From the IMG/VR virus record IMGVR_UViG_3300009008_000153, positions 1 through 32,182 of that record: a stretch of DNA of 32,182 bases; one strand, given 5' to 3'. Both the position numbers and the translations under genes were made by a program. This stretch comes from a virus. Position 1 is the first letter of the stretch, and each line of letters starts with the position of its first letter. The notes under the pieces are model-generated. The model was not told the DNA's origin, searched no databases, and saw nothing but the letters and a program-made list of their open reading frames with translations. Shown here piece by piece: positions 15,126-16,695 of this stretch.

Positions 15126-15332
15126 TTATTCAGATGGAGTTAGTTCATTAATAAGTCTTGCGACAAACCAAGACCTTAATTTTATCGGCAAATTGTAAGC
15201 TTCGATGAATGACCAGTTGCCGTGGTGCTTTAGGAGGAAGATCTCTTCATAAGTAACTTTTTCAAGATACTGAGATGTCAGGCCAAAACCAGCCCATAGT
15301 AAAGGGCACCTCCCTTTCAACTGAGGCTTCAC
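15126..15332 (-). CDS. Downstream tail-assembly frame (gp51 position), probably expressed as a +1 frameshift extension of gp26
   Basis: The frame runs in the +1 register relative to the gp26 gene and overlaps its last 71 bases. It holds a well-formed helical protein segment (YLEKVTYEEIFLLKHHGNWS, EAYNLPIKLRSW), so it is likely real coding sequence. It contains no ATG at all. Its first possible start is a GTG at 15332 with no ribosome site. A frameshift site at 15303-15315 would join it to gp26 after residue 276, adding 58 residues. In T4, gene 51 (a hub assembly protein) follows gene 26, so the position suits gp51, although this frame is much shorter. Independent initiation from GTG or TTG cannot be excluded. 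Confidence 0.65.
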   Translation of the reverse strand: MKPQLKGRCPLLWAGFGLTSQYLEKVTYEEIFLLKHHGNWSFIEAYNLPIKLRSWFVARLINELTPSE

Positions 15333-16131
15333 AGTTTTTACAAATACATGATTGCATTTTCTTTGGATTTGGCATTACGCTAGCATAAACTTTTCTGATT
15401 TTTCTTATATCTTTTAATGGCAAAACTTCAAAAAGTTGCAACAAAAGTTCAGTATCTCTTATTTCATTAACGTGGTCTACAACAAGATTAAGGTAATCTA
15501 TTGTTTCCGAACCTTCAACATTCAACTTGTCTCTTCTATCTGATTGCTCCCTCAAATATTGAGAGTCATGACCATTTATCAATCTTATTCCGACTGTTAG
15601 ATCTTTGGTAGATATCTTAAATTCAAAAATACCATCAACCTCGGTCACACCGTCAGGAATCTCTTGATCTGTTGTGTCGGAAATCATCTTTTCTAGATCA
15701 AAGGTAAATTCAGTTTCCTTACCACAGGCTTCACAGATTGTCTTTGTTTCATATTCTGGTCCATATCCGGTTATTCTGGCTGCAGCTAGGACTGCCAACT
15801 TGTCACCATCTAGAAAATCATCTGGATCTATTGATTTATCCACGAGAATGCTTCTCAGTAACTTATCAAAAACAGTACCGTTCTTGATATATTCTTCGTT
15901 TCCTAAGACATCTTCTTCTTTAGCGGTTAAGTGCTTTATTTCAACTGTTGAGTGTCCGTGAAGTGAAGAGTCTTCAAGGTAGTATTTTCCTTTACTTGGA
16001 AGGTTTACCACCTCTTTACCCACGACAAACGACATCCCGAAAGGGTTGTCAGCTTGTTTTGGTTGTGGGGGGGTTGGTTTGGTTGGTGTTTGAGGCTGGT
16101 TTCCCAGCCTTCTAGAGTTTCTTCGAGACAT
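15262..16131 (-). CDS. 26: gp26-like baseplate hub assembly protein
   Basis: A 289-aa protein resembling the T4 baseplate protein family that includes gp26. A Pro/Gln-rich N-terminal tail (1-30) leads into the conserved VNLPSKGKYY segment and KHLTAKEEDVLGNEEYI (66-82), followed by a helical domain. A split zinc-ribbon signature is visible: C133-x-x-C136 (CEAC) and C262/C264/C267 near the C-terminus (CICKNC). T4 gp26 is 208 aa. The ATG at 16131 has AAGGA upstream. It sits between tube and tape measure genes, the same slot as tail-assembly chaperones in other long-tailed phages, and its end overlaps a second frame through a probable +1 frameshift site. Confidence 0.82.
   Translation of the reverse strand: MSRRNSRRLGNQPQTPTKPTPPQPKQADNPFGMSFVVGKEVVNLPSKGKYYLEDSSLHGHSTVEIKHLTAKEEDVLGNEEYIKNGTVFDKLLRSILVDKSIDPDDFLDGDKLAVLAAARITGYGPEYETKTICEACGKETEFTFDLEKMISDTTDQEIPDGVTEVDGIFEFKISTKDLTVGIRLINGHDSQYLREQSDRRDKLNVEGSETIDYLNLVVDHVNEIRDTELLLQLFEVLPLKDIRKIRKVYASVMPNPKKMQSCICKNCEASVEREVPFTMGWFWPDISVS
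15303..15315 (-). promoter_or_regulatory. Putative programmed +1 ribosomal frameshift site in gp26
   Basis: In gp26 codons the minus strand reads AGG GAG GTG CCC T. A Shine-Dalgarno-like AGGGAG lies three bases before a CCC-T slip site. The prfB site has the same design (AGG GGG TAT CTT T). Slipping one base forward on CCC-T moves the ribosome into the frame of the downstream ORF, reading Pro then Leu-Leu-Trp-Ala-Gly. This would give a 334-aa fusion besides the 289-aa product. Confidence 0.6.
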
Positions 16132-16146
16132 TAAATCCTTCTTTCA

Positions 16147-16695
16147 TTAATTGTTTTGTGGCCAAGATTGCCCTGCAGACTCTAAGCTGGCCCAGTCATA
16201 TCTGATAGTTATATCGATATCAACTGTCCCATCCTGTGCATAGTCTAAGCTACCAAAGTTACAAGTAGTGATGAATGGATTGTTCAAGGTCCAAGTTTCA
16301 AGAGGTGCCACAGACTGATCGCCTGAGCCTGCCCCTATCTGTTGGATCTTTATCTGTCCACCCAAAGAATCTACAAAGCCTTTCTTTGATATTGTTCTTG
16401 GGTTGTCTTGAGAGTAGTCCGAGGGTATAGTATAGCCGGCTGCTCCAAGGATAGAGTAGAGACTCAAGGTAGAATCTGGCTGAACAGGGTCTACAATCTT
16501 AAATTGCAGAGTCTGCCAGGTTACCTTTCCTGGAAAATGGAACTCATAGTTCAGAAAGTCGTGCTTTGAGTCTCCCACTTGAAAATTCGGCTTTGCTGTG
16601 CTTTTCGCAATAAATTGCGGCATATTTGCAAAGTACATCAACCATCTAAACTGTCTTTTTGGCTCTAAGCTAGCCTGGCTCCAAAATCCTGCCAT
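16147..16695 (-). CDS. 19: Tail tube protein gp19
   Basis: A 182-aa protein, slightly longer than T4 gp19 (163 aa), that would stack in hexameric rings to form the inner tube. It follows the sheath gene, as gp19 follows gp18 in T4. The sequence is beta-rich, with a strand pattern typical of tube proteins: an exposed loop region at 35-60, LQFKIVDPVQPD in the middle and the closing IDITIRYDWASLE, comparable to the TLALDYWE end of T4 gp19. The ATG at 16695 follows AGGAG at a suitable distance. A 52-nt gap separates it from the sheath gene, with no terminator seen, so sheath and tube are probably co-transcribed. Confidence 0.88.
   Translation of the reverse strand: MAGFWSQASLEPKRQFRWLMYFANMPQFIAKSTAKPNFQVGDSKHDFLNYEFHFPGKVTWQTLQFKIVDPVQPDSTLSLYSILGAAGYTIPSDYSQDNPRTISKKGFVDSLGGQIKIQQIGAGSGDQSVAPLETWTLNNPFITTCNFGSLDYAQDGTVDIDITIRYDWASLESAGQSWPQNN

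Follow-up and report, generated by a model that had tools for sequence, protein, structure and literature searches.

At the end of a gp26-like gene on the minus strand of this viral DNA, a second reading frame opens in the +1 register and continues past the gp26 stop codon. How is this frame translated, and if ribosomes shift into it, where do they slip? Frameshifted tail chaperones are widespread among phages, which use -1, -2 or +1 shifts, with T4 named as an exception (PMC5009743). An earlier note on this DNA proposed a prfB-like +1 slip at a CCC_T site. Comparison with relatives makes it very probable that gp26 encodes a tail-assembly chaperone and yields a short and a long form of it through programmed +1 ribosomal frameshifting, with the slip at a different, conserved site. 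Here, the window refers to the whole stretch of DNA analysed (32,182 nt).

Results

The gp26 locus and its relatives

The gp26-like protein matches Pfam family PF12322 (E=6.6e-8; 32.9 bits, above the curated cut-off of 24.5) and phrog_150 (E=6.3e-12). In the window, a tail sheath gene and a tail tube gene precede gp26 and its +1 frame; a probable tape measure gene follows, and beyond it come more tail genes, one of them likely to encode a baseplate wedge subunit (Table 1). An equivalent order is found in the annotated phages SP-15, LIS04 and Flavobacterium phage immuto, all three with a tape measure annotated at the equivalent place. The gene thus stands where tail-assembly chaperone genes of the G/GT type do, with the tail tube on one side and the tape measure on the other. 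AlphaFold2 models were made of two plain translations from the window, one for the short form and one for the extension. The short-form model (pLDDT 89.5) matches other phage gp26/baseplate-hub models. Foldseek comparison of the models with the PDB gave no significant match, so the fold offers no test of the chaperone role, and a profile of the fusion matched no solved structure by sequence at E<=1.

Table 1. Features of the gp26 locus in the window
Feature	Position	Strand	Basis
Tail tube protein, upstream of gp26	16147..16695	-	phrog_4542, E=6e-17
gp26-like short form (TAC-N / 'G'), 289 aa, frame 0	15262..16131	-	PF12322, phrog_150, AlphaFold2 model
Shine-Dalgarno-like AGGGAGGTG, A of GGAGG 23 nt upstream of slip codon	15307..15315	-	Family-wide synonymous-level excess
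Putative +1 slip site TTT_TGG: slip codon TTT 15288-15286, next base T 15285, A-site TGG 15285-15283	15283..15288	-	YTT_T in 219/219
Conserved CCT after A-site codon, dual-coded Pro (frame 0) / Leu (+1)	15280..15282	-	CCT in 209/212 Pro codons there; 29% elsewhere
+1-frame extension (T domain), GLTSQYLEKVTYEEIF...INELTPSE, 52 codons after slip, TAA 15128-15126	15129..15284	-	Kept in all +1 loci; substitutions; AlphaFold2
Predicted 334-aa fusion (TAC-NC / 'GT' form)	15129..16131	-	Translation; 25-member fusion alignment
Probable tape measure protein, downstream of gp26, 549 aa	13433..15082	-	PhageMin_Tail, E=0.0016 (below cut-off); position

Relatives were collected by profile searches of IMG/VR (80 loci per scan) and from phage records and GTDB contigs, leaving 229 distinct gp26 junctions after removal of duplicates; junction counts refer to loci of shared ancestry, not to independent events. 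We scored a +1 extension where an ORF overlapped gp26 by at least 12 nt and ran at least 90 nt beyond its stop. Such an extension is present at 218 junctions, while five are cut by contig ends and six use the -1 frame. With the -1 group set aside, 218/223 therefore pass for the +1 frame, compared with 13/223 for the +2 frame, a built-in control. An overlapping +1 frame is shared by the relatives, 78/219 of which lack any start codon in the relevant stretch, as expected of a G/GT-type chaperone, and this distribution, together with the place of the gene after the tube and before the tape measure, supports the earlier proposal of a +1 shift from gp26 into a long form. The window's own +1 frame is as that note described it, open from 15302 for 58 codons to a TAA at 15126 with no ATG. 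Its junction sequence recurs identically in two other IMG/VR contigs and is therefore not an assembly error.

An invariant YTT_T site near the end of gp26

Aligned on the F-F-W-P conserved in frame 0, all 219 junctions carry YTT_T, as TTT_T in 204 and CTT_T in 15; this set excludes two loci with other sites (L005 and L007) and loci lacking the F-F-W anchor. The near-invariant family context is TTT-YTT-TGG-CCT. The window reads TTT_TGG_CCT at 15288-15280 and is atypical in the codon preceding the slip codon, which is TGG rather than TTT (1/214). Codon choice at the site is strongly constrained: phenylalanine at the slip codon is TTT in 204/204 cases, against 77% TTT and 23% TTC elsewhere, and the proline after the A-site codon is almost always CCT (Table 1). 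The A-site codon is TGG in 211/219 junctions and otherwise TAC, TTC or TAT, its first base being T throughout. Re-pairing in the +1 direction needs T at the last two bases of the slip codon and at the next base, and all three are invariant. The frame-0 stop follows 3-8 codons beyond TGG. A conserved slippery site late in the short ORF is a further property of G/GT-type genes, and it is seen here. In 24 loci a nearby upstream stop in the +1 frame confines the shift to the last four codons before TGG.

These observations bear directly on the site proposed in the earlier note. AGG GAG GTG CCC T can indeed be read in the gp26 frame on the minus strand, at 15315-15303, and in the window AGGGAG stands three bases upstream of CCC_T (15306-15303) in a prfB-like layout, with the +1 frame open across the stretch; Listeria phages, moreover, are known to shift +1 at CCC_U (PMC5009743). 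However, the proline codon varies among relatives (CCA, CCG, CCC or CCT), and CCC-T is read in only 23/211. A +1-frame stop intervenes between this codon and the YTT site in 72/211, and the frame-0 V-P-F-T motif carries on beyond the proline. We therefore give a slip at CCC_T driven by AGGGAG next to no credence, and place the conserved site 18 nt downstream, at YTT_T. Slippage at TTT_TGG leaves the fusion at the 334 residues given in the earlier note, with the predicted junction VPFTMGWF-GLTS. The two sites predict different junction tryptic peptides: EVPFTMGWFGLTSQYLEK would speak against a CCC_T slip and EVPLLWAGFGLTSQYLEK for it.

The site coincides with a T run, which invites two other mechanisms. 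The run is TTTTTTTGGCCT, with seven T's, in 175/214 relatives, and several others also have seven; shorter runs occur as TTTCTTTGG in 15 relatives and TTCTTTTGG in 10. A -2 shift, as used by Mu (PMC5009743), would lead into the same frame and leave the product one residue longer, and on seven T's the P-site tRNA could re-pair two bases back. Such re-pairing fails, however, at the window's TGG TTT and at the 10 loci with TTC TTT, and it has no need of the T that invariably begins the A-site codon, although conservation of Trp, Tyr or Phe there is a partial cause of that invariance. We regard a -2 shift as improbable, with a small residual chance. In the seven-T relatives a +1 shift predicts FFGL at the junction and a -2 shift FFFGL; the +1 junction of immuto would be FLGL. 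The same long runs might allow RNA polymerase to slip and produce shifted mRNA, yet slippage is not expected in runs of four T's (the window and TTC-TTT) or three (TTT-CTT), and we find this explanation scarcely credible.

A +1 slip by the ribosome at YTT_T, which we prefer, has its own difficulties, as no stop codon adjoins the slip site and no Shine-Dalgarno (SD) sequence lies at the usual 3-nt spacing. Predicted downstream RNA structure (mean z of -0.67 and -1.04, against -0.30 in a control stretch) is too weak to claim a stimulator.

A selected Shine-Dalgarno-like element

Upstream of the slip codon, a match of at least five contiguous nucleotides to the anti-SD complement is present at 178/219 junctions, compared with about 21% of control stretches. 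Across the family the A of GGAGG is centred 23, 29 or 32 nt before the slip codon. Synonymously shuffled sequences do not reach this signal (-9.45 observed against -5.97 +/- 0.12; 0/50 shuffles), and three control regions show no such excess. The glutamate codons at positions -9 and -12 are GAG rather than its synonym in ratios of 66:6 and 65:12, whereas GAG makes up 32% elsewhere. These comparisons indicate that the SD-like element is real and selected family-wide at the synonymous level, roughly 18-29 nt upstream of the slip codon. Known SD stimulators are spaced 3 nt from +1 sites and 9-14 nt from -1 sites (PMC5009743); the element fits neither spacing. The AGGGAG singled out in the earlier note is thus a genuine feature, although it does not stand at the 3-nt prfB distance from the YTT slip codon.

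A conserved extension in the +1 frame

Past the gp26 stop codon, substitutions counted over 75 independent pairs fall 1040/699/1881 at +1-frame codon positions 1/2/3, a pattern that fits a translated +1 frame. The extension has the consensus FGL..xY....xEIF.L..HG..S...YN.P..LR, and its AlphaFold2 model consists of helices (pLDDT 80.8). By comparison, then, it behaves as a conserved helical domain under purifying selection.

Could this domain instead be an independent small gene with its own start? The records of Mel-JY01, immuto, SP-15 and RM378 list all or part of it as a hypothetical protein in its own right, and the SD-like element lies upstream in most loci. Nevertheless, from the opening of the +1 frame to 10 codons beyond the site, 78/219 junctions contain no ATG, GTG or TTG, so that independent initiation cannot be general. 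The only candidate starts in the window, GTG at 15332 and TTG at 15320, both lie upstream of the SD-like element, and an independent gene would leave the invariant YTT_T and CCT unexplained. We hold this explanation to be very improbable, and a +1 frameshift from gp26 accounts for the extension far better.

Discussion

Comparison across the family establishes the architecture, the slip site and the selection acting on the extension. The chaperone role of gp26, the occurrence of the +1 shift in cells and its efficiency we infer. We propose a model where most ribosomes would read through TTT TGG CCT and terminate a few codons on, yielding the 289-aa short form. A fraction would slip +1, as the tRNA in the P site leaves UUU, or CUU in some relatives, and re-pairs with the overlapping UUU, and would continue with GGC CUG, adding the conserved helical domain to give the 334-aa long form. 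Assays of +1 slippage put UUU among the codons most prone to it, according to PMC10885494. If the parallel with lambda G/GT holds, the portion common to both forms might coat the tape measure protein, and the added domain might recruit tail tube subunits.

As in lambda G/GT, the locus would encode short and frameshifted long forms, the latter with a C-terminal extension, from a gene between the tube and the tape measure. Lambda shifts -1, whereas here the shift would be +1 at YTT_T and the short protein belongs to the PF12322/gp26 family. Short and long members of that family both exist in T4 as well, where two divergently transcribed PF12322 genes, 26 and 51, supply the two forms in place of one gene with a +1 shift. 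The "gp51-position frame" of the earlier note is therefore a loose label, gene 51 being a separate gene. T4 gp51 consists of PF12322 over residues 1-201 and a C-terminal stretch of about 48 aa. Compared with our extension by hhalign, this tail gave a probability of 50% with the whole fusion and 2% with the domain alone, and homology between the two is only suggestive. The window (a fragment), RM378 and SP-15 each have one PF12322 copy against two in T4, counts that are incomplete because the model found no copy in Mel-JY01 or immuto although tblastn shows a clear gp26 in both. The window thus does not have the T4-style pair of genes.

Vladimirov, Gautam and Davidson (2022, Virology 566:9-15) reportedly identified the tail-assembly chaperone (TAC) genes of T4-like phages, and their title is said to argue for a mechanism other than frameshifting. 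PMC10885494 cites that work for separate short and long genes, and PMC12846349 cites it for -1 signals of poly-T type in the TAC genes of T4-like phages. Together with the position of the gene, published T4-like TAC work, as represented in such citations, suggests a tail-chaperone function for gp26. Going by its title and these citations, the 2022 paper may overlap with part of our results. TAC frameshifting, including +1, was already known; what we add to this is the +1 cassette with its slip site, as well as a change of direction to -1 among jumbo phages.

Other systems share individual elements. The poly-T site in the TAC gene of Pseudomonas phage Adele (PMC12846349) and those of jumbo phages are U-rich and near the end of the short gene, as here, yet they shift -1 (at T_TTT_TTH in the jumbo phages examined), whereas here the +1 frame is reached. 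HSTV-2, a myovirus G-T case, and Listeria phage PSA (PMC5009743) use +1 shifts in viral structural genes, although in other hosts and families, and PSA does so at CCC-U in its capsid and tail-shaft genes. The site is not a cassette of the prfB type. It shares with prfB (RF2) the CTT_T slip codon, in 15 relatives, and an upstream SD-like element, but prfB has UGA in the A site and its SD at 3 nt, whereas the A site here is Trp (or Tyr/Phe) and the element is about 18-29 nt away. The likeness drawn in the earlier note therefore holds for the slip codon and not for the SD spacing.

The PF12322 relatives of T4 carry a frameshift-type architecture, +1 in one large lineage and -1 in jumbo phages, which suggests that the two-gene arrangement of T4 is one of several solutions. 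It is tempting to join these results in a single reading, which we offer tentatively and at somewhat less than even chances: a new +1 cassette, TTT-YTT_TGG-CCT with a selected SD-like element about 18-29 nt upstream, would extend across a large uncultivated T4-like lineage, in a family where both protein forms persist although the shift may go +1 or -1 at the same codons or give way to two separate genes. The loci also provide a natural series for the study of +1 slippage without a stop codon, and the predicted long chaperone form is mis-annotated or missing in hundreds of genomes.

Variation within the family

In jumbo phages XacN1, RAS14, PA5oct, Atu_ph07 and LR756511 the extension occupies the -1 frame, and the same FF codons carry T_TTT_TTH (loci L007, L009, L012, L096 and L097), and the direction of the shift thus varies within the family. 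A -1-frame extension is also present in a Deltaproteobacteria MAG contig (L261), where the sequence AAC TTC TTC CTG contains no obvious slippery heptamer. In public records for L001, L008, L010 and L095, the extension appears as a separate hypothetical protein or by its distal part only, and the fusion is unannotated.

The Firmicute phages SP-15, LIS04 and GXN1 (L010, L011 and L006) have a +1 extension with NCC_CGA near the gp26 end in place of YTT_T. GXN1 also carries TTT_CGT_C, which we take to resemble the influenza PA-X site. In LR756508 (L005) the +1 extension is accompanied by TTT_CTA_TTC_CCT where YTT_T would stand.
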